Shown here one piece after another: positions 2,582 through 63,379 of a stretch of DNA of 64,000 nucleotides; within the stretch, counting starts at the first letter, position 1; each line of letters opens with the position of its first letter. Below the pieces are notes generated by a model, which was not told where the DNA came from, did not search any database, and saw only the letters and a list, made by a program, of their open reading frames with translations. Origin of the DNA: Rufibacter roseus (GTDB taxonomy: Bacteria; Bacteroidota; Bacteroidia; Cytophagales; Hymenobacteraceae); contig NZ_LRML01000005.1 of assembly GCF_001647285.1 (NCBI RefSeq), positions 310,001 to 374,000 on the forward strand. The letters run 5' to 3'. The position numbers and the translations under genes are program-made.

Positions 2582-2617
2582 GTTTTTAATAAGTTTTTAG
2601 GAAAACAGGCTAAAAAC
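2582..2617. repeat. 36-bp palindromic element, copy 1 of 27
   Basis: GTTTTTAATAAG...GGCTAAAAAC. It overlaps the 3' end of the BamA/TamA-like gene: the TAG stop at 2610-2612 and the last codon lie inside the element. Confidence 0.85.
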
Positions 2618-4406
2618 GGCCAGTTATCCCGAAGTGAATTTTGCCCCGCTGCAGGCTAAAGCCCTCCTGTTCGTTCCGCCCCACGGAGTAAACTAACTGA
2701 AACACACCGGCTCCCGTTGAAAAGCTAATGCCGCCGCCCACACCGCTGGCCCACTGAATATTTTTTTCTTCCGGCAGGTCTCTTCTTAGATATCCTTGAT
2801 CATAGAGCAGGAAAAGGTAGGAGTCTTCGCCGGTGTATTGCCTGAACTCAAGGGTACTGATGGCGTAGGAGCTGGCATAGAAAGAATAATCATCGAACCC
2901 CCTGATACTGTTCAGCCCACCAAGCCGGAAAAGCTCGTTCAAGTAAAGCCGCTGGTTCAGGAGTGCCTCCGCCTTTAGCCGGGTCAGCACCACGCCGTTT
3001 TTAGTCACAGGCCAGTAGCGCTCCAAACGGCTTGCCACCGACAGCTGCGTGGTTTTCATTTGCAGGGTATCATAATAGCTGGCCTCTACGCGGGCGTTCC
3101 GCTGAATACGCTTGTTGCCCACCGCACCCTGAAAAAAGGCATGGGAGCCGCGGCGCGGGAAGTACAAATCATCCAGGTTGCCCCAGGCATAGGCCACGCC
3201 GTACGAGGTGAAGTTGGCGTCAATAGCCGAGGAGTCGGCGGTGCGCTGGCGCAGTGCCTCCGGCGACAGCAATTGGGAACTCAACACTTCGGCAAAGAAA
3301 GTGACGCGACTGGTGGTGGAAAGCGGATAGGCAATCTCCAGGCGCGGACGCAGGTTCAGGAAAGACGTGTCTTGCTTGTAGAGGTGAAACATGGCTGCTA
3401 CCTCAAACGGCGAGGAGAACAGGTGTGGGTGCCGGTACTCCACGTCCAGCAGCTGCGAATTTCGCTCTACCTTCCGCCAGTGCAGCCCAATTTGCTTGCC
3501 GCTGCCCCGAAGGTTGCGCACCTGCAGGTTCACTTCACCGGTAATCAATAATTTGGCCTCTCGGCTATTTGGGTCGGGCAAGAAACCGATGATGCCGTCA
3601 AACTGGTTCGCTTTTTTCTCTTCCAGAAAGAAATAAATACGGGCTTGGTTTTTGGCGAACAGCACCTGCGGAGCGCCTACCACCTTCAAAAACGGAAGCT
3701 GCCGAAGCGCTCGGTTTGCTTCTTCCATGCGCTGCTGCGAGAAAGGCTGCCCTTTCTCCAGGTGCGTGTATCTGGTAAGCGCTGTGGGTTGAATGCGGCC
3801 AGTGCCTACCACTACAATAGAGTCTATGGTCATAAGCGGTCCCCGAACCAGTCGCACCACGCCCTGCAGGGAATCTTGCCGGAGCTGCAAGGAATCTATG
3901 ACCACCTGCGCGTACGGATAGCCAGTATTCTCGGCCTCGCGCAGCAAGGCCTGCTGCAAACGGGCAAACTCTGACGGCCTGAAAGGAGTGCCTCTGTACA
4001 ACTTCTCCCGAAACCCCACCCGCTGCAGAAGCGCTTCGCCAATGTTGCCGTTCTGCAAAGAAGCCCACACAATGGGCCTGCCGGTGTACACATGCACCCT
4101 TAGCGAATCGTTTTGCCGCACCAGACTATCAATAGAAGCGGCCAGATACCCCTGTTCCCGCACATTCCCCAGCCATGCCTGCAGCCCTTGATGTAGATTG
4201 ACAGAATCAAGCGGAATATTTTTGGGCTGATTACGTTTCCAGACATCAGCGGCCTCAGCGCCTTCCGGAGTCACCACCTGTACCACGGTTTTGTTCTGCG
4301 CCTGCGCGAAACCACCGCAAAGCCACAACACCAGGAGCAAACCCAGAATTCTGTACCTTTGCAGGGAAAACATGTAACGCACAGCGGAACTTAGCCTCAG
4401 ATTCAT
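2610..4406 (-). CDS. BamA/TamA-family outer-membrane assembly protein
   Basis: 598 residues. A signal peptide (start at M1, or at M12 = position 4373) ends at GGFAQAQ. Three POTRA-like segments span about residues 40-270; the last reads GPLMTIDSIVVVGTG and LPFLKVVGAPQVLF. A 16-strand-type beta-barrel follows, ending in the aromatic beta-signal HFGITGRF. The family inserts or exports proteins or lipids at the outer membrane. This protein is shorter than BamA (usually five POTRAs) and closer to TamA-like proteins of Bacteroidota. It is transcribed divergently from hemW, 80 bp apart. The stop codon lies inside a 36-bp element. Substrate unknown. Confidence 0.85.
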   Translation of the reverse strand: MNLRLSSAVRYMFSLQRYRILGLLLVLWLCGGFAQAQNKTVVQVVTPEGAEAADVWKRNQPKNIPLDSVNLHQGLQAWLGNVREQGYLAASIDSLVRQNDSLRVHVYTGRPIVWASLQNGNIGEALLQRVGFREKLYRGTPFRPSEFARLQQALLREAENTGYPYAQVVIDSLQLRQDSLQGVVRLVRGPLMTIDSIVVVGTGRIQPTALTRYTHLEKGQPFSQQRMEEANRALRQLPFLKVVGAPQVLFAKNQARIYFFLEEKKANQFDGIIGFLPDPNSREAKLLITGEVNLQVRNLRGSGKQIGLHWRKVERNSQLLDVEYRHPHLFSSPFEVAAMFHLYKQDTSFLNLRPRLEIAYPLSTTSRVTFFAEVLSSQLLSPEALRQRTADSSAIDANFTSYGVAYAWGNLDDLYFPRRGSHAFFQGAVGNKRIQRNARVEASYYDTLQMKTTQLSVASRLERYWPVTKNGVVLTRLKAEALLNQRLYLNELFRLGGLNSIRGFDDYSFYASSYAISTLEFRQYTGEDSYLFLLYDQGYLRRDLPEEKNIQWASGVGGGISFSTGAGVFQLVYSVGRNEQEGFSLQRGKIHFGITGRF

Positions 4407-4486
4407 TGTTTGTAATTTACGGCTTGCCTCTCAATTTTGAGCAGCCGCACTTTTTCTTTTAACGCAATTCCTTTACTTAACGCATT

Positions 4487-5629
4487 TTGGCCGGAATTTA
4501 TCTTCATATCCCTTTTTGTAAACAAGCCTGCCATTACTGCGATTTCCATTTCAGTACGTCACTAGGCCTGAAAGAGCAGGTACTGAACGCTATGCAGCAG
4601 GAGCTGGCGCTGCAGCAAAGTTACCTCAACGGCGCCACCATTGATACCATTTATTTTGGCGGCGGCACTCCTTCTATTCTATCAGTGCAGGAGTTGCAGG
4701 GGCTGTTTGAGACGATTTACCGGTTGTTCCCCGTGAATCCTTCGGCGGAAATTTCGCTGGAGGCCAACCCCGACGACCTGACGCCGGAGAAGTTGTTGGC
4801 GCTGAGCCAGACACCGGTGAACCGCCTGAGCATTGGTGTGCAGTCTTTCCACAACCCGCACCTGCAGCTCATGAACCGTCCGCACTCAGCGGCTGAGGCC
4901 GAAGCCTGTATTAAACTGGCGCAGGATTTGGGCTTCGGCAATATCTCCTTGGATTTGATTTACGGCATTCCGGCCGAAAACCCGGCGCTGTGGGAAGAAG
5001 ATTTGGCCAAAGCTTTTGCGTTGAACGTGCAACACCTATCGTGCTACGCCCTTACCATTGAACCCAATACCGTTTTTGGCCACCGCGTGCGCAAGGGCAA
5101 GTTCTCTCCCGCCGACGAGGAACGCGTAGCCCAGCAATTTGAGCTGTTGATGAGTCAAGCTGCTGCCCATGGTTTCCTTCATTACGAGATTTCCAACTTC
5201 TGCCAGCCTAGGTTTGAGAGTAAGCACAACAGCAGCTATTGGAAACAAGTGCCATATTTAGGCATTGGCCCTAGCGCCCACTCCTTCAACGGCACCAGTC
5301 GTCAGTACAACTTGCCCAACAACCCAAAATACGTGCAGAGCCTGCAGCAGAACGAACTGCCGTGTACCGTAGAGGAACTGACCGTGGAAGACCGCGTGAA
5401 TGAGTATGTCATGACCACCCTCCGCACCAGCTGGGGCTGCGACACCAACTACATTCAGGAGAAGTGGGGCATCCAGCTACTAGACCTACACGCAGAATAC
5501 CTGCAGCAAATAAAAGACAAAGGTTTACTGCGTGAAGAAAACGGAGTTTTGATTCTAACTGAAGCCGGCAAACTATTGGCCGATGAAATAGCCTTGGACT
5601 TGTTTCTGCTGAACGAAGAATCTGTTTAG
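4487..5629 (+). CDS. hemW: HemW-like radical SAM heme chaperone
   Basis: 380 residues. The radical SAM cluster motif C11xxxC15xxC18 (PFCKQACHYCDF) is at the N-terminus; IYFGGGTPS and the HemN C-terminal domain follow. HemW is often misannotated as oxygen-independent coproporphyrinogen III oxidase; it lacks the extra N-terminal part of HemN and is thought to deliver heme to respiratory enzymes. The start is TTG at 4487, because the conserved AGIYLHIPFC begins immediately there and no ATG is in frame nearby. A 36-bp element begins 2 bp after the stop. Confidence 0.93.
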   Translation: MAGIYLHIPFCKQACHYCDFHFSTSLGLKEQVLNAMQQELALQQSYLNGATIDTIYFGGGTPSILSVQELQGLFETIYRLFPVNPSAEISLEANPDDLTPEKLLALSQTPVNRLSIGVQSFHNPHLQLMNRPHSAAEAEACIKLAQDLGFGNISLDLIYGIPAENPALWEEDLAKAFALNVQHLSCYALTIEPNTVFGHRVRKGKFSPADEERVAQQFELLMSQAAAHGFLHYEISNFCQPRFESKHNSSYWKQVPYLGIGPSAHSFNGTSRQYNLPNNPKYVQSLQQNELPCTVEELTVEDRVNEYVMTTLRTSWGCDTNYIQEKWGIQLLDLHAEYLQQIKDKGLLREENGVLILTEAGKLLADEIALDLFLLNEESV

Positions 5630-5631
5630 GC

Positions 5632-5667
5632 GTTTCAGGGCTGTTTTTGGAAAAAGAGGCCAAAAAC
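5632..5667. repeat. 36-bp palindromic element, copy 2 of 27
   Basis: GTTTCAGGGCTG...AGGCCAAAAAC, directly after the hemW stop codon and before the co-directional DUF4304 gene. Confidence 0.85.
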
Positions 5668-5694
5668 ACCTTATTGCATGGTAAGTAATTTTGT

Positions 5695-6156: not shown

Positions 6157-6241
6157 ATATTTTGTACTTGAAACTCTTCTTGGTTATCAATTATCATTTC
6201 AAGCGCACACTTGAGCCATTCAATAATAACGGTTAGTTAAA

Positions 6242-6757: not shown

Positions 6758-6813
6758 ACACTACAATAACAGAATGCCAAAGGTACGGATTAAGCCGGAA
6801 GGAGACAGGGCGC

Positions 6814-6849
6814 GTTTTAGGTCTATTTTTGGAAAATCAGGGTAAAAAC
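6814..6849. repeat. 36-bp palindromic element, copy 3 of 27
   Basis: GTTTTAGGTCTA...AGGGTAAAAAC. It lies between two divergently transcribed genes, so it is not a 3'-end feature of either. Confidence 0.85.
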
Positions 6850-6851
6850 AG

Positions 6852-7703: not shown

Positions 7704-7748
7704 CCTTTACCTACTTTTTCAGCCACCTAAACTTGGGTGCAAAAAGAA

Positions 7749-7812
7749 GCCCCTTGGCGACTGTTTTAGCTGTATTTTCTGAAAAACAGCCTAAAAACAG
7801 ACAGCCAAGGGA
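7749..7812. terminator. Extended hairpin around a 36-bp element between convergent genes
   Basis: CCCTTGGC at 7751-7758 and GCCAAGGG at 7803-7810 bracket element copy 4, extending its palindrome. It lies between two convergent genes and probably ends transcription from both sides. Confidence 0.5.
7763..7798. repeat. 36-bp palindromic element, copy 4 of 27
   Basis: GTTTTAGCTGTA...CAGCCTAAAAAC, between convergent genes, inside a longer CCCTTGGC/GCCAAGGG stem. Confidence 0.85.
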
Positions 7813-7841
7813 CTTACAATAATGGAAAGCTGTACACGGTT

Positions 7842-10305: not shown

Positions 10306-10322
10306 TCGAGCTGATTTCTATC

Positions 10323-10338: not shown

Positions 10339-10347
10339 TGACAATTA

Positions 10348-11012: not shown

Positions 11013-11510
11013 ATGATGAACAAGACAGTACTCACTTTTTTGCTAGGCTTCATGAGCCTGCTGCCAGCAGCGGCTCAACGATACAAAACGGCAGCCGGAA
11101 TTAGAATAGGCACAGAGGAATTTGGGCTCACCCTGCAGCAGAAAGTATATGAGAAAACAACCGTGGAAGGTATGGTGGTTTTTGCCCCGCGTGAAGTCAC
11201 TGTCACTGTATTAGGACAGCGGCACTTTCCGTTGTTAGGGCAGCGCTTTAATTATTATTTGGGCGGCGGTGTACACGGTGGCCACCTCAAAGATTTCGGA
11301 GCCATTTACGGCTTAGATGCCATTGCCGGCATTGAGTACAAAATTAACGGCTTGCCCTTTTTACTCTCTACAGACATAAAACCAGCTTTTCACTTAAGGC
11401 ATGAGAGTTGGTTTAACTTTGGTGGCGCCTTCTCCATCAGGTACGTGCTTATAAAAGAAAAGCCACCAACTCCGGGCGAGATCATTAGGGGCATTTTCAA
11501 GAAGAAGTAA
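11013..11510 (+). CDS. Secreted hypothetical protein, probable small outer-membrane barrel
   Basis: 165 residues with a signal peptide (MMNKTVLTFLLGFMSLLPAAAQ). The rest alternates hydrophobic and polar residues and is glycine-rich (YYLGGGVHGGHL, DAIAGIEYKI), as in small 8-strand outer-membrane barrels of Bacteroidota. No family assigned. Tandem ATG codons; the first is used here. Confidence 0.7.
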   Translation: MMNKTVLTFLLGFMSLLPAAAQRYKTAAGIRIGTEEFGLTLQQKVYEKTTVEGMVVFAPREVTVTVLGQRHFPLLGQRFNYYLGGGVHGGHLKDFGAIYGLDAIAGIEYKINGLPFLLSTDIKPAFHLRHESWFNFGGAFSIRYVLIKEKPPTPGEIIRGIFKKK

Positions 11511-11538: not shown

Positions 11539-11574
11539 GTTTTGGAGCTGTTTTTCAGAAAAGAGGCCTAAAAG
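11539..11574. repeat. 36-bp palindromic element, copy 5 of 27
   Basis: GTTTTGGAGCTG...AGGCCTAAAAG (last base G instead of C), between convergent genes. Confidence 0.75.
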
Positions 11575-12656: not shown

Positions 12657-12692
12657 GTTTTGGGGCTACTTTTTAAAAATTGAGCCGAAAAC
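12657..12692. repeat. 36-bp palindromic element, copy 6 of 27
   Basis: GTTTTGGGGCTA...GAGCCGAAAAC, between convergent genes and between two inverted 7-bp-period arrays. Confidence 0.85.
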
Positions 12693-12748: not shown

Positions 12749-12753
12749 CTAAT

Positions 12754-13728: not shown

Positions 13729-13778
13729 AAGAGCCGTTTTTGCCCTGATTTCCTGAAAACAAGGCAAAAACGGCTCTT
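13729..13778. terminator. Extended hairpin around a 36-bp element
   Basis: AAGAGCC before and GGCTCTT after element copy 7 extend its palindrome to about 50 bp. It follows the stop of the minus-strand MBL-rhodanese gene and probably terminates its transcript. Confidence 0.6.
13736..13771. repeat. 36-bp palindromic element, copy 7 of 27
   Basis: GTTTTTGCCCTG...AAGGCAAAAAC. Arms carry TGCC/GGCA, a compensated variant, between two co-directional minus-strand genes. Confidence 0.88.
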
Positions 13779-16281: not shown

Positions 16282-16317
16282 GTTTTTAGCTCTCTTTTGT
16301 AAAAGCAGCCTAAAAAC
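16282..16317. repeat. 36-bp palindromic element, copy 8 of 27
   Basis: GTTTTTAGCTCT...CAGCCTAAAAAC, starting 7 bp after the cyanophycinase stop. Confidence 0.85.
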
Positions 16318-16447: not shown

Positions 16448-16483
16448 GTTTTTGGCCTACTTTTTAGTAAACAAGACTAAAAC
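16448..16483. repeat. 36-bp palindromic element, copy 9 of 27
   Basis: GTTTTTGGCCTA...AAGACTAAAAC, second copy in the same convergent gap, 166 bp from copy 8. Confidence 0.82.
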
Positions 16484-21520: not shown

Positions 21521-21553
21521 AGCCTCAGCCTTACGGGGCAAAATCTTTCAAAA

Positions 21554-21587
21554 ACAGAAGCGGGAGCCCAAGGGCTCCCGCTTCTGT
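21554..21587. terminator. Bidirectional terminator between the lipocalin-like gene and polA
   Basis: Perfect 16-bp stem (ACAGAAGCGGGAGCCC and its complement, 2-base loop), followed by a T run; it merges into 36-bp element copy 10. Confidence 0.9.
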
Positions 21588-21621
21588 TTTTGGTCCCTTT
21601 TAGCCAAAACAGGTTAAAAAC
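21586..21621. repeat. 36-bp palindromic element, copy 10 of 27
   Basis: GTTTTTGGTCCC...CAGGTTAAAAAC, ends 2 bp before the polA stop codon and abuts the terminator stem. Confidence 0.82.
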
Positions 21622-21622: not shown

Positions 21623-24490
21623 TTAATGCGCCTCCAGCCAGTTTTCGCCGGTGCCCAAGCCAATTTCCATAGGCACGCTGAGCGGTAGAGCCGTTTTCAT
21701 GAGCTCTTCAATTTTGGGCTGCACCACGGCCAGTTCTTCACGGGGCACGTCAAATACCAATTCGTCATGCACCTGCAGAATCATACGGGTGGCTAATTTC
21801 TCCTCGCGTAGCCATTGGTCAATGTTGATCATGGCAATCTTAATAATGTCTGCCGCCGTGCCCTGAATTGGTGCGTTGATGGCGTTGCGTTCAGCGTAGC
21901 CGCGTATGTTCTGGTTACGTGAGTTTATGTCTCTGAGGTAGCGTCTCCTGCCCAACAGCGTTTCTACGTATTCCTGCTCCCGGGCTACGTTAATGGCGCT
22001 GTCCATGTACTGCTTCACCGCCGGGAACTCCTGAAAATAGGCTTCAATAATCTCTGCGGCTTCTCTACGCGGAATAGCCAGTCTTTCGGCTAGGCCGAAG
22101 GCGGAGATTCCGTAGATGATCCCGAAGTTGATGGTTTTGGCCTTCCGGCGCATGTCTGACGTCACCTCTTCCACGGGCACGTGGAACACTTTGGCAGCGG
22201 TAGAAGCGTGAATATCCTGCCCCTTCTGGAAGGCCTCTTTCATGGTGGCATCATTGCTGAAATGCGCCATGATTCTGAGCTCAATTTGTGAATAATCCGC
22301 GGAGAGCAGCACATGGTTCGCATCACGCGGCACGAATGCCTTCCGGATTTCACGGCCTTTCTCCGTACGGATGGGTATGTTCTGCAGGTTGGGGTTAGTA
22401 GAGCTCAAACGTCCGGTGGCTGCTACGGCTTGGTTGTAAGACGTGTGCAGGCGGTTGTCTTCCGCGCAAACCAGCTGCGGAAGCGCGTCTACATAGGTGC
22501 TCTTGAGTTTTGTCAGCTGTCGGTGGTCCAGTATGAGCTGCACTATCTCGTGCTCAAAGGCTAGTTTAGAAAGAATCTCTTCGCCCGTGGCGTACTGGCC
22601 GGTTTTGGTTTTCTTGATTTTGCTGCCGCCCAGCTGCATTTTGTCAAACAACACCTCGCCCAGTTGCTTAGGCGAGCCTATGTTAAACTCCATGCCCGCG
22701 TGCTCAAATATCTTCTGCTCTATCTCCTGAATATTCTGCTGCAGGTCAATGGAAGACTCGGCCAGGGCTTCGGCATCAATGCTCACGCCTTCGCGCTCCA
22801 TATGCCCTAACACAGCCAGTAACGGATTCTCTACCTCATTGAACAGGCGTTTTAGGCCTTGTTTTTCCAAAAGAGGGTCAAAATAGTTTTTAAGCTGCAG
22901 CGTGATGTCAGCGTCTTCACAGGCATACTCATACACTTGCAGCGGCGGCAATTTGTCCATGGTGAGCTGGTGCTTGCCTTTGCCCAGCAGCGTTTCTATG
23001 GAAATAGGCGAGTAGTTCAGGTATGTTTCGGCCAGCAGGTCCATGTTATGGCGCATATCAGGCTCCAGCAGGTAGTGCGCTAGCATGGTGTCATATAATG
23101 GCCCCTGCACATCAACACCGTAGCGCTGCAGCACCACCAAATCATATTTAATGTTCTGACCTATTTTGACAATGCTGGGGCTTTCCAGCACCTCTTTGAA
23201 CTCCTGCACTAGATCATAGGCGGCTTCCTCGTCTTGCGGCGGAACCGGTATATAATAAGCCTCGCCGGGCAGATAACAGAACGAGATGCCTACCAAACGT
23301 GCGGTGATAGGGTCAATGCTGGTGGTCTCGGTGTCGAAGGAGATTTCTTTCTGCAGCTTAAGGTATTTCAAAAGCTGTTGCCGTTGCTCGGACGTATTCA
23401 GCAAATGGTATTCGTGCAGCGTGGTGTCAATGGTCTTTCTTACCCGTGGGGTGAGCTCATCAAAAGCTGTTTCAGAGGCCTCCCCAACTTCAGGCGCCAC
23501 CGTATCTTCAGCTCCTCCAAACAACGAGGTTTGCCCCGTGGGCACACTTGATTTTACCCCCTTGCCCACGGTTGGTTTGTTGCTCACAGGTTTGGGAACG
23601 GCCGGTGAGGCGGTACCCAGCACACGCGTGGCCAATTGCCGGAATTCCAGCTCGTCAAACAGCGCCGCCAGTTTCTCCGTGTCTGGTCCGTCATAACGCA
23701 GCCCCTCCTCGTCAAAGTCAATGGGCACGTCCAGGTGAATGGTGGCCAATTCTTTTGACATGAGGCCCTGCTCCGCGAATTTCTCCACGTTCTCCTTCTG
23801 CTTGCCTTTCAGCTCGTGCACGTTGGCAATGAGGTTCTCCACGCTCCCGAACCGTTGAATCAGCGTCTTCGCGGTTTTCTCACCAATGCCCGGAATACCT
23901 GGTATGTTATCCACGGCATCGCCCATGAGGCCCAGAATGTCAATGACCTGCTTCACGTTCTCAATCTCCCAGCGCTCCAGCACCTTGGGCGTATCAATTA
24001 CTTCTATGGCGTTGCCCAAGAATGCGGGCTTGTAGACAAACACATGGTCGGTCACCAGTTGGTAGTAATCTTTGTCGGGCGTCATCATGAACACGTCATA
24101 CCCTGCTTTTTCGGCTTTGCAGGAGAGGGTGCCAATAATGTCATCGGCCTCGTAGCCGTCCAGCATCATGCCGGGTATGCCAAAGGCCTCCACAATTTTC
24201 TTCACGTAAGGTATGGCAATGGCAATGTCTTCAGGCATGGCCTGACGGTTGGCCTTGTATTCTACAAATGACTCGTGCCGGAAGGTTTTGGAAGGCGCAT
24301 CATAGCACACGCCAATGTGCGTAGGCTTTTCGCGGTTGAGCAGGTCTACCAAGGTGTTGGTGAAACCCAACGCGGCACCGGTATTCATGCCTTTGGAGTT
24401 GATTCTGGGGTTCTTGCTGAACGCGAAGTGGGCGCGGTAAATGAGCGCCATGGCGTCTAGGAGAAACAGGCGTTTATCTGGTGTACTCAT
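21623..24490 (-). CDS. polA: DNA polymerase I
   Basis: 955 residues from ATG 24490 (MSTPDKRLFLLDAMALIYR); the longer upstream frame is not conserved and would cross the promoter. The 5'-3' exonuclease domain (about 1-290) has the H3TH segment GIPGIGEKTAKTLI. The 3'-5' exonuclease retains its metal site (SFDTETTS). The polymerase domain has DYSQIELR, RRKAKTINFGIIYG and QVHDELVFD, so all three activities look intact. It acts in Okazaki fragment maturation and repair. A promoter fits just upstream with an almost absent leader. Confidence 0.96.
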   Translation of the reverse strand: MSTPDKRLFLLDAMALIYRAHFAFSKNPRINSKGMNTGAALGFTNTLVDLLNREKPTHIGVCYDAPSKTFRHESFVEYKANRQAMPEDIAIAIPYVKKIVEAFGIPGMMLDGYEADDIIGTLSCKAEKAGYDVFMMTPDKDYYQLVTDHVFVYKPAFLGNAIEVIDTPKVLERWEIENVKQVIDILGLMGDAVDNIPGIPGIGEKTAKTLIQRFGSVENLIANVHELKGKQKENVEKFAEQGLMSKELATIHLDVPIDFDEEGLRYDGPDTEKLAALFDELEFRQLATRVLGTASPAVPKPVSNKPTVGKGVKSSVPTGQTSLFGGAEDTVAPEVGEASETAFDELTPRVRKTIDTTLHEYHLLNTSEQRQQLLKYLKLQKEISFDTETTSIDPITARLVGISFCYLPGEAYYIPVPPQDEEAAYDLVQEFKEVLESPSIVKIGQNIKYDLVVLQRYGVDVQGPLYDTMLAHYLLEPDMRHNMDLLAETYLNYSPISIETLLGKGKHQLTMDKLPPLQVYEYACEDADITLQLKNYFDPLLEKQGLKRLFNEVENPLLAVLGHMEREGVSIDAEALAESSIDLQQNIQEIEQKIFEHAGMEFNIGSPKQLGEVLFDKMQLGGSKIKKTKTGQYATGEEILSKLAFEHEIVQLILDHRQLTKLKSTYVDALPQLVCAEDNRLHTSYNQAVAATGRLSSTNPNLQNIPIRTEKGREIRKAFVPRDANHVLLSADYSQIELRIMAHFSNDATMKEAFQKGQDIHASTAAKVFHVPVEEVTSDMRRKAKTINFGIIYGISAFGLAERLAIPRREAAEIIEAYFQEFPAVKQYMDSAINVAREQEYVETLLGRRRYLRDINSRNQNIRGYAERNAINAPIQGTAADIIKIAMINIDQWLREEKLATRMILQVHDELVFDVPREELAVVQPKIEELMKTALPLSVPMEIGLGTGENWLEAH

Positions 24491-24575: not shown

Positions 24576-24611
24576 GTTTTAGAACTCTTTTTTTTAAAAA
24601 TAGGCTGAAAC
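24576..24611. repeat. 36-bp palindromic element, copy 11 of 27
   Basis: GTTTTAGAACTC...TAGGCTGAAAC, in the divergent region upstream of polA. Confidence 0.78.
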
Positions 24612-26703: not shown

Positions 26704-26737
26704 TCTATATTTTATAACGCTACACAGGCGTCTAAAC

Positions 26738-26775
26738 AAAAAGAGCTGGCTCATTAATTTGAGCCAGCTCTTTTT
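26738..26775 (+). terminator. Intrinsic terminator of fbaA
   Basis: AAAAAGAGCTGGCTCA / TGAGCCAGCTCTTTTT, perfect 16-bp stem; A- and T-tracts on both sides make it bidirectional. Confidence 0.95.
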
Positions 26776-26783
26776 ATTAGTGC

Positions 26784-26819
26784 GTTTTCGGCTTGTTTTT
26801 CAAAAAAAAGGCCGAAAAC
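26784..26819. repeat. 36-bp palindromic element, copy 12 of 27
   Basis: GTTTTCGGCTTG...GGCCGAAAAC. Arms carry CGGC/GCCG, a compensated variant, next to the fbaA terminator. Confidence 0.88.
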
Positions 26820-29823: not shown

Positions 29824-29893
29824 CTCAGTAAGAAAATAGGAAATGGAAAAACAGGAGGAAATCCTCCAAACAGTTCCTCAGGTACAGACTTCC

Positions 29894-29928
29894 GTTTCAG
29901 CCTGTTTTTCAGAAAACAGCCCTAAAAC
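29894..29928. repeat. 36-bp-type palindromic element (35 bp), copy 13 of 27
   Basis: GTTTCAGCCTG...CAGCCCTAAAAC, between the small His-rich gene and the TonB receptor, which are co-directional. Confidence 0.83.
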
Positions 29929-30717: not shown

Positions 30718-30753
30718 GTTTCTGGCCTGTTTTCTGAAAAATAAGCTAAAAAC
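30718..30753. repeat. 36-bp palindromic element, copy 14 of 27
   Basis: GTTTCTGGCCTG...TAAGCTAAAAAC, about 70 bp upstream of htpG in a divergent region. Confidence 0.82.
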
Positions 30754-32648: not shown

Positions 32649-32654
32649 AAGTTG

Positions 32655-32690
32655 TTTTAGCGTTGTTTTTATGAAAAGAGGCCGGAAACG
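32655..32690. repeat. 36-bp palindromic element, copy 15 of 27
   Basis: GTTTTAGCGTTG...GGCCGGAAAC, 7 bp after the htpG stop. Its right arm also serves as the left arm of the terminator at 32675. Confidence 0.83.
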
Positions 32691-32712
32691 TAAGTTTACC
32701 GGCCTCTTTTGG
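32675..32712 (+). terminator. htpG terminator sharing an arm with the 36-bp element
   Basis: AAAAGAGGCCGG / CCGGCCTCTTTT, perfect 12-bp stem plus an inner AAAC/GTTT pair, followed by a T run. Its left arm is the right arm of element copy 15, so the two hairpins exclude one another. Confidence 0.88.
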
Positions 32713-33386: not shown

Positions 33387-33422
33387 GTTTTGGCGCTGTT
33401 TTTATAAAAAGAGGCCGGAAAC
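33387..33422. repeat. 36-bp palindromic element, copy 16 of 27
   Basis: GTTTTGGCGCTG...GGCCGGAAAC, almost the same composite as copy 15, 732 bp away. Confidence 0.83.
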
Positions 33423-33443
33423 GCAAGTTTACCGGCCTCTTTT
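33407..33443. terminator. Composite terminator sharing an arm with the 36-bp element
   Basis: AAAAGAGGCCGG / CCGGCCTCTTTT with T run, as at 32675. Here it follows a minus-strand gene, so its T run points away from that gene; the stem may still work on the minus strand. Confidence 0.7.
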
Positions 33444-34422: not shown

Positions 34423-34458
34423 GTTTTACTCCCGTTTTTCTTAAAACAAGCCTAAAAC
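34423..34458. repeat. 36-bp palindromic element, copy 17 of 27
   Basis: GTTTTACTCCCG...AAGCCTAAAAC, 4 bp beyond the stop of the minus-strand serine hydrolase. Confidence 0.83.
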
Positions 34459-34462: not shown

Positions 34463-35566
34463 CTACTTCTTCATCACCACATTCAAGCGCTTCCAAATCT
34501 CATTCAGAAATACCACCGGCACTTCTTCGTCACCAGGAGCCTCGCCCATGCGCACCAAAACCAATCCTTGGCTGGGCACCACGTTCAGGAACTGGCCGTT
34601 TTTGCCCATGGCGGCATACATTTCGGCGGGAGCATCAGGTACCGAGCTACCAGGGAAAACAGTAGGCACGGAGGGCAGCATGAACGAAGGCTTGCCGTTG
34701 AGCCACCAGAGGTAGCCGTAAGACAGATTCAGGCTCTGCGAGGTGTTCACCATGGCATTTATATAAGCGGCATCATTCAGAACAGCGGTATTTTCCCATT
34801 TGCCTTTGTTGAGCATGAGCAACCCGAAACGGGCCATAGAGCGGGCAGTGCTGAAGTACACATGGTTGTCTCCAACATGTTGCCAAAGGCCATTCATCCC
34901 AATTTTATCAGCTAGCCGACTCTTGAAGTAAGCGTTATAGTTTTGGTTGGTGCTGCTCTCAATTACTTTGCTCAATAAGGTGTAAGGGGCATTGTGGTAG
35001 GCCCAGCGGGTGCCAGGAGCAGCGCGGTAAGTAAGGCAGGCAGGAGTGGTGCAGTCGCGGTTGGGCACCCGTTCATCCAGGCCAGTCGTCATGGTGAGTT
35101 GGTGCCGTATGGTAATCTGATCTTCCTGCGCAGCTGAAAGGCTCGTCCAGTTGGCACCTAGGTATTTGCTGGTTTTGTCATTAATGGAGAGAAGCCCTTC
35201 TTCCTGCGCTTTGCCTACCATAAACGCAGTCAATGTTTTCCCCGCCGAAGCCCAATACCAGTTACTACCTACGTTAAATGCACCACCGTTGGCAGCGGTG
35301 CCGCTGTAATGCTCCAGCACTATCTTCCCATCTTTTAATAACAAGAAGGCTCTGGTGTTATTCTGCTCCAGATACGAAACCAGCTCCGGCAGTGCATCGG
35401 TATTCCACCCTAAACTTTGAGGTGAGGTCGTTTCCCACATGGAAGAACCTATGGCCGGAAAGTACAAGGCTGCCCCTGATGGGGCCGGCACCTCTTTTTT
35501 GCTGCAGCCAATAAACATGAGTGCAGAAAAGACAGACATAACAAGGCTAAAAAAACTTCTTAACAT
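34463..35566 (-). CDS. Beta-lactamase-family (class C fold) serine hydrolase lipoprotein
   Basis: 367 residues. Lipobox MFIGCSKKE. The SxxK motif is SAGK in WYWASAGKTL, followed by YHN (WAYHNAPY) as the YxN motif and a class C-type C-terminal segment (FSTARSMARFGLLML, SYGYLWWLNG). Family members are penicillin-recognising esterases, D-aminopeptidases or peptidases; beta-lactamase activity should not be assumed. It acts in the periplasm or at the outer membrane. Confidence 0.88.
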   Translation of the reverse strand: MLRSFFSLVMSVFSALMFIGCSKKEVPAPSGAALYFPAIGSSMWETTSPQSLGWNTDALPELVSYLEQNNTRAFLLLKDGKIVLEHYSGTAANGGAFNVGSNWYWASAGKTLTAFMVGKAQEEGLLSINDKTSKYLGANWTSLSAAQEDQITIRHQLTMTTGLDERVPNRDCTTPACLTYRAAPGTRWAYHNAPYTLLSKVIESSTNQNYNAYFKSRLADKIGMNGLWQHVGDNHVYFSTARSMARFGLLMLNKGKWENTAVLNDAAYINAMVNTSQSLNLSYGYLWWLNGKPSFMLPSVPTVFPGSSVPDAPAEMYAAMGKNGQFLNVVPSQGLVLVRMGEAPGDEEVPVVFLNEIWKRLNVVMKK

Positions 35567-37079: not shown

Positions 37080-37115
37080 GTTTTAGCCCCGATTTCATAA
37101 AAAGAGGCCGAAAAC
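37080..37115. repeat. 36-bp palindromic element, copy 18 of 27
   Basis: GTTTTAGCCCCG...AGGCCGAAAAC, 18 bp after namZ; its right arm forms the left arm of the terminator at 37101. Confidence 0.85.
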
Positions 37116-37136
37116 ATAATGTTTCCGGCCTCTTTC
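37101..37136. terminator. Composite terminator between namZ and the convergent gene
   Basis: AAAGAGGCCG / CGGCCTCTTT with inner AAAC/GTTT, third case of an element arm reused in a T-tailed terminator. Confidence 0.85.
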
Positions 37137-38003: not shown

Positions 38004-38039
38004 GTTTTAATCCTGATTTGCAGAAAAAAGGCCTAAAAC
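38004..38039. repeat. 36-bp palindromic element, copy 19 of 27
   Basis: GTTTTAATCCTG...AGGCCTAAAAC, flanked by AGC/GCT, between co-directional minus-strand genes. Confidence 0.83.
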
Positions 38040-39079: not shown

Positions 39080-39700
39080 TTAAGAAATTGCTTTGTGGTA
39101 CAGGTCTAATCCTTCAGATTTAATGGTGCTGAAGAATTCTGGGGTAACACTCAGGTAAGAGGCAATGTGGTACTGCGGAATGCGCTGCGGCAGGTCCGGA
39201 AATTTGAGAAGGAAGTCACGGTAATTTTCGGCCGCGGTTTGGGTCATCAAAGACAGCATGCGCTTTTTAAAGGCGAAGTAGCCGTTTTGGATCAGTCTTC
39301 GGAAAAACAGGTTGAAAACAGGATGATCTTGCGTGAGTTGCTCAAAAACACTGACCTGTACCTGCACGTACTGCGTGGGCTCCAGCGCCTGAATAGATAA
39401 TAGGGCAGGTTTGTGAAAGGCCACATCACTGATCCAGTAACGTTCTACGGCAAATTCTAAGTTCACTTCTTTGCCAGCCGTGTCTACAATAAAAGACCGC
39501 AAGCACCCGCTCTGCACGAAATACATGATGTGGTTTAACTCACCGGTTCGCAGCAAATACTCTTTCTTTTTTGCCTCCTTCAGCTCACAAATAGCCAGAA
39601 ATGCCGCTTCCTCAGTTGGGGAAAGCGTTACGTACTGTGTAATGGCAGCGGTGAGGAAGTCTAAAGGCAAAGTAAAAGTCAGGTTTCTGTTCTGAGGCAA
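39080..39700 (-). CDS. Crp/Fnr-family transcriptional regulator
   Basis: 206 residues from TTG 39700; no in-frame ATG is available upstream. The cyclic-nucleotide-binding-like domain (KKEYLLRTGELNHIMYFVQSGCLRSF) is followed by a C-terminal helix-turn-helix (PQRIPQYHIASYLSVTPEFFSTIKSE). It lacks Fnr cysteine clusters. Members of this Bacteroidota group often control adjacent oxidoreductase genes. Confidence 0.85.
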   Translation of the reverse strand: MPQNRNLTFTLPLDFLTAAITQYVTLSPTEEAAFLAICELKEAKKKEYLLRTGELNHIMYFVQSGCLRSFIVDTAGKEVNLEFAVERYWISDVAFHKPALLSIQALEPTQYVQVQVSVFEQLTQDHPVFNLFFRRLIQNGYFAFKKRMLSLMTQTAAENYRDFLLKFPDLPQRIPQYHIASYLSVTPEFFSTIKSEGLDLYHKAIS

Positions 39701-41881: not shown

Positions 41882-42237
41882 GTTTCTATGCGTGAAGGTG
41901 TGAGCCAAAAGCGATCAATTAGCCTGGCTCACCATTACTTTAATAACGCTTTAAGCCCTAATCTACGTAATAATGAATTTAATTCTGAATTTTGAGGGAA
42001 AGTTTGCCATTGACCCCGCGCTTCGGTAAATACTTATTGCTATTCTTGAATATTTGCCTGTTCCTTCGTTATCTTTAAAAAATCAACTTTACCTGAGGCT
42101 AATTATAGCGAAGCGAGGGCTGCGTTTTAGGCTCCTTTTCAGGAAAACAGCCCAAAACCATACTTTTGACCCACACTTACGTATGAGGGTTAGCCTCTAA
42201 AAAAGGACGAATACCACTTACAAACGAACCCTGAACT
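41882..42237. other. Divergent region upstream of lemA
   Basis: 356 bp without an ORF. It contains a 36-bp-type element (42124) and AT-rich sequence. No regulatory motif is clear. Confidence 0.45.
42124..42158. repeat. 36-bp-type palindromic element (35 bp), copy 20 of 27
   Basis: GTTTTAGGCTCC...CAGCCCAAAAC, in a divergent intergenic region. Confidence 0.82.
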
Positions 42238-42915: not shown

Positions 42916-42951
42916 GTTTTAGGGCTATTTTCTTAAAAACAGCCCTAAAAC
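42916..42951. repeat. 36-bp palindromic element, copy 21 of 27
   Basis: GTTTTAGGGCTA...AGCCCTAAAAC, 15 of 16 arm positions paired, between lemA and the first TPM gene. Confidence 0.9.
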
Positions 42952-44390: not shown

Positions 44391-44426
44391 GTTTTGGCTA
44401 TGTTTTTCGGAAATAAAGGCTAAAAC
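44391..44426. repeat. 36-bp palindromic element, copy 22 of 27
   Basis: GTTTTGGCTATG...AAGGCTAAAAC, in a convergent gap. Confidence 0.85.
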
Positions 44427-47004: not shown

Positions 47005-47040
47005 GTTTTTAGCCTATTTTTGGTAAACTAGGCCTATAAC
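47005..47040. repeat. 36-bp palindromic element, copy 23 of 27
   Basis: GTTTTTAGCCTA...TAGGCCTATAAC, filling most of the 40-bp gap between convergent genes. Confidence 0.83.
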
Positions 47041-48307: not shown

Positions 48308-48347
48308 AAAACAGCCCGAAATCGCTTTTGCGATTTCGGGCTGTTTT
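48308..48347. terminator. Terminator between DUF4286 and GNAT genes
   Basis: AAAACAGCCCGAAATCGC / perfect 18-bp complement with TTTT loop, A- and T-tracts outside: bidirectional. Its right arm overlaps element copy 24. Confidence 0.93.
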
Positions 48348-48368
48348 CGTAAAAAGAGGCTTAAAACA
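48333..48368. repeat. 36-bp palindromic element, copy 24 of 27
   Basis: ATTTCGGGCTG...AGGCTTAAAAC. Its left part is shared with the strong terminator; the element is degenerate at its first base. Confidence 0.65.
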
Positions 48369-50066: not shown

Positions 50067-50113
50067 CTTTCCGTTTTCGGGCTGTTTTTATAAAAGCAGC
50101 GAAAACGGAAAGA
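50067..50113. terminator. Extended hairpin around a 36-bp-type element
   Basis: TCTTTCC before and GGAAAGA after element copy 25 extend its stem, filling the gap between convergent genes up to the LytTR stop. Confidence 0.65.
50073..50106. repeat. 36-bp-type palindromic element (34 bp), copy 25 of 27
   Basis: GTTTTCGGGCTG...AGCAGCGAAAAC, in a convergent gap with extended stem. Confidence 0.85.
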
Positions 50114-53350: not shown

Positions 53351-54472
53351 TTACGAAGTTCTGTTAACTTGGTGAACAATTTTGCTTTGCAGCCACCACC
53401 AGGCTTCCACCACCGTTCTGATGCCGGGCAAATACAAGATGCCAAACAGGTAGTAGTTCTTGTCTAGCAGACGCTGCCGGTACGCTTCAAACCCTACATA
53501 GCCATCTTGCTCACCGCTGGGGTACTGCCTTTTATATGATGCCTCACGCCGGCTTCCGCCCCAGGAAGTTTGCACGTGCTGTGCCTTTATAACCTTGTTG
53601 AGAAAGAGCGAATAAGGGAAAAACAAACAAAGCAGCACCAGACAAGCCACTACAAAGCTTACCAGAAAAGCAAACTGGTTGAGCAAGTGAAAACAGATGA
53701 GAAACGCGCCCACCCAAGGTCTTAAGGTAGGTCGCCAAGCAGCCCAGATGGAGGTTGCCTGCAGATAAGTTACCCCCACAAAACCTAATTGCCACACCCA
53801 CGCATAGTCGGTGAAAAGAGGAGCAAAGGTTAGGGGTAAATCATTATCTCTGAAGTTGACCAAGGCGTTGTAAAGGGCAGCCTCAGGCTTCAACCAATGC
53901 ACATCGGTTGAGCTGGTTAGCAACTTGTAAGCTAAAGCCGCCACTTTCCACGTTCCGGCCAATGAATAGGTGAACAACAGACCCAGATAAAACCAGTTGA
54001 TGCCGGTACTTACCTCTTGCTTCCCCGAAAACAGGCTGCTTTTATTAAAACAGGCGAAAACCAGAAACAAGTGCGCCAGTAAGAACAGGTGGTTTACGTT
54101 GGGCAGGTATCCGTAGCTCCAGATGATTAGGTTTATCCACAACAGGCAAAGTGCCAGCACAACCTGAGCTAGTAAAGAACTTCTCCAGATGAATTTCACC
54201 CCGTTCATGGCCGCCGCTATGGCAATCACACCTAAAAACACCTCTTTCCCTGGCAAAGCAGGAATTAAACATTCGCTTATCAGCCCCTCAGGGGTAAATA
54301 GTACGGCAGGCCGTTGCAGCAGGACTTCAAACTTTGCCCAAGCCCAATACAGCCACACAAATGTGAAGATTCGTAACGCTGTTTCTGCATAAAAGAAATC
54401 TACACCCGTGCGCAGGCGTTGCTGTACACCACTCAGGTCTAGCTCCTTCGTATTTATTTGGATATTGGGCAT
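53351..54472 (-). CDS. HTTM (vitamin K-dependent gamma-carboxylase-like) membrane protein
   Basis: 373 residues from ATG 54472, one base after the upstream stop, so probably translationally coupled. About eight hydrophobic helices with the HTTM pattern (LRIFTFVWLYWAWAKFE, IIWSYGYLPNVNHLFLLAHLFLVFACF, GINWFYLGLLFTYSLAGTWKVA). HTTM proteins resemble the membrane part of gamma-glutamyl carboxylase; bacterial functions are largely unknown. Confidence 0.85.
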   Translation of the reverse strand: MPNIQINTKELDLSGVQQRLRTGVDFFYAETALRIFTFVWLYWAWAKFEVLLQRPAVLFTPEGLISECLIPALPGKEVFLGVIAIAAAMNGVKFIWRSSLLAQVVLALCLLWINLIIWSYGYLPNVNHLFLLAHLFLVFACFNKSSLFSGKQEVSTGINWFYLGLLFTYSLAGTWKVAALAYKLLTSSTDVHWLKPEAALYNALVNFRDNDLPLTFAPLFTDYAWVWQLGFVGVTYLQATSIWAAWRPTLRPWVGAFLICFHLLNQFAFLVSFVVACLVLLCLFFPYSLFLNKVIKAQHVQTSWGGSRREASYKRQYPSGEQDGYVGFEAYRQRLLDKNYYLFGILYLPGIRTVVEAWWWLQSKIVHQVNRTS

Positions 54473-54473
54473 T

Positions 54474-54935
54474 TTACTTGAAACGGGCAACAGTGATGGT
54501 GTCATACTTCTCCGGGTGGTTCAGTAAATCTTTTACCTGCATGGTTTCCTGCACCACTCTGTATTCCTGCGCTTTTGGGTGCACATGCTTGACAAAAGCC
54601 TCCAGTTTCTCCCGGTTGTTGGTCGTTCCGCTGCTATCTGCGGCTACCCGGCTGGCCAACTCCCAAAGCATGTAGGTATAATCATCCCGGTTGAAAGTAG
54701 GGGTAGCCTGTACCTGCTGCCGCTTGAACTGGGTTTCTCCGGCCTGGCGTGTATACACTCTATAAACGCTGTAGACATGGGTATTCCCCCTAGGTTGAGT
54801 GTACAACTTCCAGTTAAAGAAAGGGTAAATCTCGCCCCAGCCCTGGCGTAGGGTAAAAGTAGACGCCAAGGCTCCTGCCATGCTCAGCAGCACTAAAGCT
54901 TTCAGAAAGAAGAGTCGCCGGTGGTAACGGGGCAT
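54474..54935 (-). CDS. Single-pass hypothetical protein paired with HTTM
   Basis: 153 residues, one N-terminal helix (FFLKALVLLSMAGALASTFTL) and a periplasmic domain (PFFNWKLYTQPRGNTHVYSVYRVYT). The domain is also found next to HTTM genes and is otherwise uncharacterised. Stop and HTTM start are separated by one base. Confidence 0.75.
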   Translation of the reverse strand: MPRYHRRLFFLKALVLLSMAGALASTFTLRQGWGEIYPFFNWKLYTQPRGNTHVYSVYRVYTRQAGETQFKRQQVQATPTFNRDDYTYMLWELASRVAADSSGTTNNREKLEAFVKHVHPKAQEYRVVQETMQVKDLLNHPEKYDTITVARFK

Positions 54936-58867: not shown

Positions 58868-58929
58868 CGCTTATTTTTAAAATAATTCTGTTTCTTAATC
58901 TTGAAAAGAGGCTACCGGAATTTATTTAT

Positions 58930-59037
58930 TGGCGCGAGCACCTGCGCTAGTCTGGCGTGTACTGTAACTACTTCCGACTTTAAGTCTGATTTCGCAAAAC
59001 TAGCCCCAAAAGGCGCTACAAGCGGGCTCTTGCGCCA
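58930..59037. repeat. Possible MITE-like or palindromic repeat
   Basis: Ends are inverted repeats: TGGCGCGAGC (58930) and GCTCTTGCGCCA (to 59037). The inside contains GACTTTAAGTC. Length 108 bp. It lies between the T9SS protease and the potassium-channel gene. Single copy in this window, so repeat status is inference. Confidence 0.4.
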
Positions 59038-59068
59038 GCTTTATTTTACTTCATACAGTTTCACTGTA

Positions 59069-60760: not shown

Positions 60761-60960
60761 ATACAGTGCCTTTTACGGAGAAGGAAAGATAGAGCAGATA
60801 TGGATTTAAAAAAAACTTCAGCCTTCAGGAGCGGTATTCTATTTCTGACCAGCCGTTCTACGTGTAAAGCCTGTGCAGGCATACGTTTAGCCGGTGCCGC
60901 TGCATAAAATACTTGCATGGCAAACCAGGCGAGCGTAGCTTAGTGCTTTACAGCTTTTCT

Positions 60961-62325: not shown

Positions 62326-62414
62326 GTAAATTGTTGACTGGGGATTTTTTAAACCGCTTGCTGTACTACCGTCTTAGGTGTTGGCTGGTAGTGTTTCCAA
62401 AAGGAATGTGAGCT

Positions 62415-62450
62415 GTTTTTAGCCTGTTTTTCTTAAAACAGGCTAAAAAC
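62415..62450. repeat. 36-bp palindromic element, copy 26 of 27 (best copy)
   Basis: GTTTTTAGCCTGTTTT-TCTT-AAAACAGG and CTAAAAAC: a perfect 16-bp stem with a 4-base loop, between convergent dgt and purU. Confidence 0.95.
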
Positions 62451-62470
62451 AGGCGCCACACAATAATTTA

Positions 62471-63301
62471 TCAAAAAATAATGGTTTTGTTGTCGCTCAC
62501 GAACACCTTTTCAGAAAAAACCAGTTTCAGCGCCTGGGCCAGTACAATTTTCTCCACATCCCGCCCCGATTGAGCCATGTCTCTGGCACTTTGCGCATGG
62601 TTTACCTGAATTACATTTTGGGCTATGATTGGCCCTTCGTCTAGCTCATTGTTCACAAAATGAGCGGTAGCCCCAATAACTTTCACTCCGCGCTCAAATG
62701 CCTGCTTATATGGGTTGGCTCCAATAAAAGCAGGCAAAAAAGAATGATGAATGTTGATGATGCGGTTAGGGTACTGCTCTACAAAGCCCGAACTAAGCAC
62801 CCGCATGTATTTGGCCAGCACAATGTATTCTGGCGCATATGCGTTTACTGTAGCGGCTATTTCCCGGTCGTGCTCTTCACGGGTTTTGTTTTCGTGCGAA
62901 ATATGGTGGAAAGGTATATTGAAACGGGTCACCAGCGTTTCCAGCTCCTGATAGTTCCCGATCACCGCTTTGATGTTGGCGTTCAAATCACCGTACTCGT
63001 ACCGCAACAGTAAATCACCTATGCAATGGTGCTCTTTGGTCACCAATATCACTATGTCTTTTTTGCGCTCAGGCACCAGCTTAATGTTCGCCTCCGGGGG
63101 CAAAGCTTCGTGCAGTTCCTGAACTAATGCCTGTGGGTTAACTTCTCCGGATAGTTCCGCCCGCAGAAAAAAGTAGTTGCGCAAACGGTCCACAAACTCA
63201 TCATTGCTGATAATATTCAGGTTATTTCTGAAAACTATTTGGGTGATGGTATAAATAAGCCCTTTCCGGTCTGAGCAATCAATGAGCAGAGTATGAAGCA
63301 T
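62471..63301 (-). CDS. purU: Formyltetrahydrofolate deformylase
   Basis: 276 residues. An N-terminal ACT domain (TLLIDCSDRKGLIYTITQIVFRNNLNI) and a formyltransferase-like domain (VTKEHHCIGDLLLRYEYGDL, IPFHHIS, NIHHSFLPAFIGANPYKQAFERGVKVIGATAHFV) with catalytic His-Ser (HHSFLP) and Asp-Glu (NELDEGPII). It releases formate from 10-formyl-THF for purine synthesis and folate balance. A TATATTTG -7 box is at 63321-63328 on the minus strand. Confidence 0.95.
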   Translation of the reverse strand: MLHTLLIDCSDRKGLIYTITQIVFRNNLNIISNDEFVDRLRNYFFLRAELSGEVNPQALVQELHEALPPEANIKLVPERKKDIVILVTKEHHCIGDLLLRYEYGDLNANIKAVIGNYQELETLVTRFNIPFHHISHENKTREEHDREIAATVNAYAPEYIVLAKYMRVLSSGFVEQYPNRIINIHHSFLPAFIGANPYKQAFERGVKVIGATAHFVNNELDEGPIIAQNVIQVNHAQSARDMAQSGRDVEKIVLAQALKLVFSEKVFVSDNKTIIF

Positions 63302-63343
63302 AGCTATATCTTGAGATGCTCAAATATAGACTACAATCCATTC

Positions 63344-63379
63344 GTTTTTAGACTGATTTCACAAAAAGAGGCGAAAAAC
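63344..63379. repeat. 36-bp palindromic element, copy 27 of 27
   Basis: GTTTTTAGACTG...AGGCGAAAAAC, between co-directional purU and GNAT genes, 9 bp past the GNAT stop. Confidence 0.85.

Follow-up and report, generated by a model that had tools for sequence, protein, structure and literature searches.

A dispersed palindrome at a Rufibacter locus

The window, by which we mean the whole 64,000-nucleotide (nt) stretch analysed here, comes from Rufibacter roseus (assembly GCF_001647285.1, contig NZ_LRML01000005.1, positions 310,001 to 374,000 of the forward strand). Among its genes are an Omp85-like gene, polA, an open reading frame (ORF) with a cyclic nucleotide monophosphate (cNMP)-binding domain and a conserved class II aldolase, and dispersed among the genes is a 36-bp palindromic element of the form GTTTT...AAAAC. 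The pattern GTTTT-N7-TTTT-N4-AAAA-N7-AAAAC, at up to 3 mismatches, gives 29 matches at 28 distinct places (24576 and 24577 are the same place), against 0.22 expected from 100 dinucleotide shuffles of the window. A relaxed pattern of 14 fixed bases (GTTT-N9-TTT-N4-AAA-N9-AAAC, 0 mismatches) matches 27 times and its reversed control 0 times, and the symmetric position weight matrix (PWM) that we used for element calls matches 31 times. The copies, with one adjoining hairpin, are listed below; none is assigned a strand.

2582..2617, element, 0 mismatches; overlapping the Omp85-like gene 2610-4406 (minus strand) at its stop
5632..5667, element, 1 mismatch; 2 nt past the stop of 4487-5629 (plus strand)
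6814..6849, element, 1 mismatch; divergent gap
7763..7798, element, 0 mismatches; convergent gap; outer stem CCCTTGGC/GCCAAGGG, in which a few bases are unpaired
11539..11574, element, 1 mismatch; downstream of 11013-11510 (plus strand)
12657..12692, element, 2 mismatches; convergent gap
13736..13771, element, 1 mismatch; outer stem AAGAGCC/GGCTCTT
16282..16317, element, 2 mismatches; convergent gap that holds a further element
16448..16483, element, 2 mismatches; same convergent gap as the preceding element
21549..21592, canonical bidirectional terminator-like hairpin; the first GTTTT of the element that follows serves as its T-tract
21586..21621, element, 0 mismatches; 3' end of polA
22849..22884, weak copy, 2 mismatches; inside polA, probably chance
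24576..24611, element, 1 mismatch; close to the 5' end of the ORF of polA
26784..26819, element, 0 mismatches; convergent gap, directly past a canonical terminator (26738-26775; hairpin 26735-26778)
29893..29928, element, 2 mismatches
30718..30753, element, 1 mismatch; divergent gap
32654..32689, element, 1 mismatch; A arm also pairs with 32696-32710 in a terminator-like hairpin (32674-32710)
33387..33422, element, 1 mismatch; A arm also pairs with 33429-33443 (hairpin 33407-33443)
34423..34458, element, 0 mismatches; 4 nt away from the stop codon of 34463-35566 (minus strand)
37080..37115, element, 1 mismatch; A arm also pairs with 37119-37135 (hairpin 37101-37135)
38004..38039, element, 1 mismatch; outer stem GAGC/GCTC
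39284..39319, copy, 1 mismatch; inside the cNMP-binding-domain ORF
42124..42159, element, 1 mismatch; divergent gap
42916..42951, element, 0 mismatches
44391..44426, element, 1 mismatch; convergent gap
47005..47040, element, 2 mismatches; convergent, with a stop on either side
48332..48367, element, 1 mismatch; T arm also pairs upstream (48308-48347)
50073..50108, weak copy, PWM only; convergent gap
54027..54062, weak copy, PWM only; inside ORF 53351-54505 (minus strand), probably chance
58977..59012, weak copy, PWM only; convergent gap
62415..62450, element, 0 mismatches; perfect palindrome with 18-bp arms and a 4-nt loop; convergent gap
63344..63379, element, 1 mismatch

The family of 27 copies given in a preliminary description of this DNA is thus real, as is the perfection of its copy at 62415. 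Its tally of 14 convergent, 9 co-directional and 4 divergent copies comes close to our re-called 13, 8 and 4 with 2 inside called genes, and its 13 occupied convergent gaps out of 15 to our 11 out of 14 (gaps of at least 40 bp). The claim that all copies are intergenic fails at 39284 and 22849. The element at 24576 may precede the real start of polA, because 7 of the 14 full-length polA homologues in congeners align only downstream of it. Where a hairpin in the window has an arm in common with an element, two alternative pairings are possible. The stretch 1-2400, termed accessory in the preliminary description, lies upstream of a tRNA-Met gene (2460-2534, minus strand) and has no elements.

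Copy number and restriction to the genus

In the whole genome of 5.12 Mb, the same architecture (up to 2 mismatches) is matched 1463 times and the reversed pattern 7 times. All 16 genomes of the genus (Rufibacter/Sabulibacter) carry 186-1561 relaxed-pattern copies each, and the 15 congeners all have 31-1407 copies at up to 1 mismatch. Outside the genus, 134 of 134 sampled genomes of the family (5 other genera) show 0-3 relaxed matches, and 295 of 295 further genomes in a draw from the phylum at most 5 (up to 1 mismatch). The counts in the genome and its relatives, which the preliminary description had proposed as a check, are therefore far above chance in the genus, and a chance origin is ruled out by the shuffle, reversed-pattern and family-wide counts together. 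Low strict counts inside the genus are partly differences of spelling: one genome (G307) has 31 strict and 1442 relaxed matches because its consensus is GTTTTCGGGCTCATTT.

The nearest relatives of the class II aldolase are in Rufibacter/Sabulibacter (85-88%), followed by Pontibacter. Among 80 fetched named loci bearing this gene, elements at up to 2 mismatches are present in 8 of 8 from Rufibacter/Sabulibacter and in none of the remaining 72, including 17 from Pontibacter and 1 from Adhaeribacter. No equivalent dyad family of similar strength was found in 45.8 kb of Pontibacter or 43.8 kb of Hymenobacter intergenic DNA, the Pontibacter set being one locus in 17 species, and a single 101-base query gave no plasmid match.

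Architecture of the dyad

Fixed in the element are G-TTTT, the GG of positions 7-8 and the CT of positions 10-11; a second TTTT follows at a distance of 11 bp from the first, and then come a 4-bp centre and the mirror half. Pooled flanks add 2 bp per side (CY...RG), extending the 36-bp core to a dyad of about 40 bp. The consensus can be written as four short T/A boxes 11 bp apart, CYGTTTT-n-GG-n-CTGTTTT-N4 and its mirror image; CCGTTTT (283/1330) and CTGTTTT (205/1330) are the most frequent outer 7-mers and CTGTTTT (321/1330) the most frequent inner one. Species spell the element in different dialects, and the two ends of the consensus are GTTT and AAAC in all eight genomes.

Within one genome the arms differ widely between copies. 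The preliminary description had the arms paired over about 16 bp; in the own genome, full Watson-Crick pairing over 16 pairs is the exception, found in 12 of 126 elements, with a mode of 11. That the geometry is unlike that of a canonical terminator is supported, the T- and A-tracts each lying in the arm opposite to that of a terminator. The element comes as an inverted pair: in five genomes, isolated half-sites that score as well as the top three quarters of true halves number at most one per genome. The scores of the two halves are clearly positively correlated in G300 only (rho 0.56), with 0.19 in G000 (p=0.06) and values near zero in four others.

The earlier statement that no described family fits was upheld within the sources covered. 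Rfam at the gathering threshold returned no family for the element, its single match being a tRNA. The literature on Rufibacter and related palindrome families gave no description of it among the open-licence papers listed, most subscription papers and all bioRxiv preprints lying outside that set, and the accessible part of a paper on spaced motifs (PMC5217627) does not mention the group.

Placement relative to genes

Placement was studied in an eight-genome sample of 1.66 Mb with 738 elements, 735 of them placeable against genes called by codon-usage heuristics. Density per kb is 3.69 in convergent gaps, 2.27 in co-directional gaps, 1.23 in divergent gaps and 0.05 in coding DNA. Of 1032 gaps of at least 40 bp, 551 are occupied; by type and length, occupancy is 65-93% in convergent, 21-71% in co-directional and 0-51% in divergent gaps, the 0 belonging to divergent gaps below 100 bp. 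In co-directional gaps the median distances of the element are 39 nt from the stop that precedes it and 108 nt to the start that follows, with 294 of 391 nearer the stop. Usually there is one per gap: in four genomes, 85, 107, 69 and 59 occupied gaps hold a single element and 14, 14, 14 and 10 hold two or three, and successive elements are less than 300 bp apart in 3-9% of cases versus 29-36% expected for random placement in gaps.

Some long stretches lack the element. In one genome, positions of about 2,630,000-2,717,500 (G308:C1, L152-L156) contain two element-free blocks of 42 and 38 kb with 8 convergent gaps, all empty, and the first block encodes a phage-type integrase and a macro-domain protein. 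The emptiness of both blocks and the integrase in the first suggest that acquired islands probably lack the element, and absence of the element may mark acquired DNA in the genus. G000 has six element-free blocks of 13-22 kb, with one convergent gap among all six.

Inheritance of sites and turnover of their spelling

Occupancy was compared between orthologous gaps whose gene pair is adjacent in both genomes, over 28 genome pairs in which genomes recur (184 distinct genome-gap combinations), so that the comparisons are not independent. In 1021 comparisons both gaps were occupied in 508, one in 119 and neither in 394, with 315 joint occupancies expected; joint occupancy thus makes up 508 of the 627 cases in which either genome has an element. 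The presence/absence check proposed in the preliminary description accordingly turned out against a mobile repeat. Divergent gaps behave likewise, with 71 jointly occupied versus 30 expected. An example is the divergent gap of the 42124 element, which holds a copy at up to 2 mismatches in 6 of 8 other genomes of the genus and a 3-mismatch version in 2 of 8. Orthologous elements also agree in their position within the gap. The agreement is strong in co-directional gaps (rho 0.72; best shuffle 0.16) and weak in convergent ones (rho 0.41; best shuffle 0.38); in divergent gaps it does not exceed the best shuffle, with a median difference in position of 5 nt versus 16.

The variable N7 segments have largely turned over. 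In 11 of 20 genome pairs, orthologous elements exceed random ones in N7 identity by less than 2 standard deviations (sd). Between the sister genomes G308 and G302, the identity of elements chosen by PWM is 0.92 in the T/A blocks, 0.79 in the N7 segments and 0.76 in the loop. By PWM, 30 gaps of this pair are occupied in both genomes and 0 and 2 in one; by the stricter pattern, 21 are occupied in both and 6 and 4 in one, and a decayed copy is visible in 6 of the 7 strict one-sided gaps that were displayed (the display covering 22 of the 31 gaps). The flanks of this pair are in large part not convincingly alignable by eye, and the element persists. Given joint occupancy despite turnover of the N7 segments, the sites are old, inherited and selected, with a spelling that drifts within species.

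Strand tests for DNA-level and RNA-level function

An RNA hairpin should tolerate G-U mismatches on the sense strand over A-C mismatches, and a duplex-DNA site should not. This provides a test in which mismatch types are counted on the sense strand of co-directional elements. In the 391 such elements, G-U and A-C are nearly balanced, at 351 vs 326 over positions 5-13 (p=0.36) and 412 vs 389 over positions 1-16. Ordinary terminators served as the positive control: 107 of the canonical type, found by strand-neutral scoring in the co-directional gaps of these genomes, gave 49 G-U vs 11 A-C (p=8e-7). No asymmetry related to transcription was found at positions 1-16. Covariation of N7 pairs within genomes is mostly absent and sometimes negative, the clearest exception being pair 6/31 in the own genome (z 6.5), and in 26 sister orthologue pairs the single changes by which a base pair is gained or lost number 59, versus 3 compensatory double changes. 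Inner pairing beyond composition is absent in divergent (z -1.5) and convergent gaps (z 1.2).

A subset of the elements behaves differently. Outer stems of at least 4 bp are present in 72 of the 391 co-directional elements and in 37 of the 187 convergent ones, and inner pairing is better there (0.79-0.83). The tail of these co-directional elements contains 3.74 T in 8 nt versus 2.01 in the rest, and at least 5 T in the 8 nt after the stem are seen in 48 of 391 (26 of 72 with an outer stem, 22 of 319 without). In the other 319 of 391, G-U and A-C stand at 355 vs 356 and inner pairing is weak (0.58). We take the symmetry to be recognised mainly in DNA and read these data as two layers: a DNA site everywhere, and about one-fifth of the 3'-end sites reused as terminator stems. 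The hairpin reading of the preliminary description holds for that fifth. A pure RNA hairpin, our own initial reading, was dropped for most elements on the pairing, G-U/A-C and sister-change data and kept for the outer-stem subset.

Transposases and target-site signatures

The preliminary description likened the family to repetitive extragenic palindromic (REP) sequences or miniature inverted-repeat transposable elements (MITEs). A genome-wide intergenic family is supported; a mobile repeat of that kind is not, given the conserved occupancy and the flanks described here. Its suggested mover, a REP-associated tyrosine transposase (RAYT), showed no link to the element. Y1 transposase genes are present in 15 of 16 genomes of the genus, with 6 Y1_Tnp genes in G307, and G302 has 0 with 798 elements. 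Clear inverted repeats beside called Y1 genes were seen in 4 of 20 stretches (a gene being called in 7 of the 20, not all 7 necessarily the Y1 gene), and all are palindromes other than the element. A RAYT-driven REP is ruled out by the genome without Y1 genes and by these unlike palindromes. The palindromes themselves, AAGTTTAGCG..AACTTGTGGG and GGCGCGGAAGTTACTTCCGTGCC, flank RAYT-like Y1_Tnp genes at L238 (G301), L243 (G307), L246 (G296) and L247 (G305), and may be true REP/RAYT families of the genus.

No flanks common to different copies were found in three genomes (mean identity 0.25-0.26), and duplications of 5-10 bp around 665 elements do not exceed one per length and offset, so that a MITE with target-site duplication is not supported. 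Flank matches of 2 and 4 bp are modestly above expectation (e.g., 50 vs 27.6 and 11 vs 4.4), an excess that could come from symmetric flanks. Repeats of 36 bp with a GTTTT...AAAAC look are known from type II CRISPR (clustered regularly interspaced short palindromic repeat) arrays. A CRISPR-like repeat was rejected, most copies of the element being far apart and differing from one another.

Interpretation

By its placement, inheritance and strand symmetry, the element looks more like a site for a chromosome protein than like an RNA hairpin or a jumping repeat. More specifically, we put at about an even chance the proposal that it is a genus-specific, chromosome-wide binding site for a putative symmetric DNA-binding protein at transcription-unit boundaries. 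An abundant sequence-specific protein of the genus, itself symmetric and presumably dimeric or tetrameric, would occupy the dyad of about 40 bp. The 11-bp repeat of the T boxes in each half suggests two contacts per half on the same face of the helix. That sites lie behind stops and in convergent gaps, away from starts, suggests a boundary function: like a nucleoid-associated boundary protein, the bound reader might mark or insulate transcription-unit boundaries by blocking read-through or holding supercoils. About one-fifth of the sites at gene 3' ends have secondarily become part of longer RNA hairpins, many with a T-rich tract behind them, and these are probably terminators too. More tentatively, and somewhat short of even confidence, we suggest a genus-specific chromosome-marking system new to the literature, in which a 40-bp four-box dyad, usually single in an occupied gap, and a dedicated reader separate transcription units. 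The reader would co-evolve with its sites, the dialect of a species changing at hundreds to more than 1000 of them together, and some sites would have turned into terminators.

Among known systems, matS/MatP, Noc and integration host factor (IHF) sites are specific DNA motifs read by a chromosome protein at many places. The element resembles them as a specific motif at many chromosomal places with a putative reader; it differs in its length of about 40 bp, its four boxes and its presence in about half of the intergenic gaps. As expected of a landmark, it is a strand-symmetric dyad with occupancy conserved beyond chance, its centre and some flank positions being asymmetric. The nearest precedent that we found is DNA gyrase, which, according to the accessible part of PMC6379681, binds some bacterial interspersed mosaic elements (BIMEs) of the BIME-2 type in Escherichia coli.

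Several observations weigh against the proposed protein site. Two genomes, G303 and G299, have more matches in coding DNA (their motifs are weak, and false calls are more likely there). Chromosomal spacing is no more regular than the gap structure gives, and regular spacing was rejected as a property of the family. In divergent gaps the correlation of positions (rho 0.35) falls below the best of 1000 shuffles (0.39). For N7 identity, 9 of 20 pairs exceed random by at least 2 sd, notably G308/G302 (0.79 vs 0.70) and pairs among G299, G300 and G303. Asymmetry with respect to transcription appears at centre position 17 (p=0.0014) and flank position -7 (p=0.001), and double changes in sister orthologues number 13 vs 9.0 expected, 10 of the 13 leading from unpaired to unpaired. 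Other such observations speak for RNA: there is more inner pairing in co-directional gaps than composition explains (z 4.6), the 154 co-directional elements with the best pairing show 154 G-U vs 120 A-C, the 72 with outer stems 57 vs 33 (p=0.015), and outer stems covary in convergent (z 8.5) and co-directional gaps (z 8.1), not in divergent ones (z -0.5). By the excess of outer-stem and co-directional pairing, a subset is under selection at the level of RNA. One could see the whole family as a genus-specific bidirectional terminator or 3'-end stabilising hairpin of inverted T/A geometry that acts either at the 3' end of the RNA or after Rho. The location behind stops and in convergent gaps, usually once per gap, would fit, as would the long stems, T-rich tails and G-U excess of those 72 elements. 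Occupied gaps are also somewhat richer than empty ones in predicted canonical terminators (38% vs 23% in co-directional and 25% vs 7% in divergent gaps), and 145 such predictions overlap an element, with others adjoining elements. About one-fifth of the 3'-end elements indeed resemble intrinsic terminators in sitting at the apex of longer stems that are often followed by T-rich sequence; the remainder of the family differs from them, with no U-tract after most copies, occurrence in divergent gaps and no G-U excess in most copies. The balance of mismatches in the weakly paired majority, set against that in ordinary terminators, and the conserved occupancy of divergent gaps are hard to reconcile with this explanation. 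Moreover, canonical terminators are predicted in 63% of occupied (n=156) and 58% of empty (n=33) convergent gaps (81% in Pontibacter, n=26), so that elements do not simply replace terminators. We therefore consider an RNA-level function of the family as a whole unlikely, though it deserves to be kept in view.

An old REP- or MITE-like family, amplified in the stem of the genus and now inherited vertically as a largely functionless relic, would account for the genus restriction, the dispersed short palindromes and the lack of the element in blocks that look acquired. REPs are 20-40 bp high-copy palindromes located in intergenic regions, mostly in co-directional and convergent gaps near 3' ends, as described in the portion of PMC3733652 available, and the element likewise is intergenic, high-copy and near gene 3' ends. 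It differs from REP/BIME sequences in that its consensus ends without a GTAG/CGTC tag, its arms are diverse within a genome, its core is strand-symmetric without wobble bias in most copies, it has no RAYT link and it is conserved at orthologous sites across the genus. Such extensive joint occupancy where the N7 segments have largely turned over is not expected without selection, and together with the missing common flanks, 5-10 bp duplications and Y1 transposase link it makes a relic decidedly improbable. DNA uptake sequences and uptake signal sequences (DUS/USS) of Neisseriaceae and Pasteurellaceae occur in high copy number, and a self-recognition signal of this kind, with secondary use in terminators, might explain the species dialects, the copy numbers, which are similar to those of DUS/USS, and the two acquired-looking blocks without the element. 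DUS too show dialects and copies in terminator hairpins, and intragenic copies are common, going by the consulted section of PMC3630211. The unit of the element, in contrast, is an inverted pair with practically no lone half-sites, it is rare in coding DNA (0.05 vs 1.2-3.7 per kb in intergenic DNA), and usually one copy is present per gap, the wide spacing within gaps being unexpected for an uptake signal. An uptake function thus appears very improbable.

If the proposed protein-bound boundary site is real, the genus would, after splitting from its relatives, have come to mark about half of its intergenic gaps and would have kept and re-spelled the mark at hundreds to more than 1000 places. 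This would be a rare instance in nature of a trans-acting DNA reader that has changed along with its sites throughout a genus, and would offer a way to study the insulation of bacterial transcription units. Even under an RNA-level explanation, the terminator geometry would be unusual. The comparison of G-U with A-C mismatches by strand also offers a cheap general way to separate RNA hairpins from symmetric DNA sites among further families of palindromes.

Other matches and palindromes

A genome of another family in the same order (G330), with 15 matches, was considered as a possible homologue and rejected: 14 of the 15 stretches match the sought core, most have common flanks, and the copies belong to a longer near-identical dispersed repeat. 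That repeat includes GTTTTTAGCCTATTTTGTCAAAAAACTGGYAAAACC and is probably unrelated to the element. In the Pontibacter intergenic DNA (45.8 kb), the palindrome GCTAA-N5-TTAGC occurs 15 times against 0.3 expected, the loci being one region in 17 species. By counts alone, 17 viral contigs have one matching place each.

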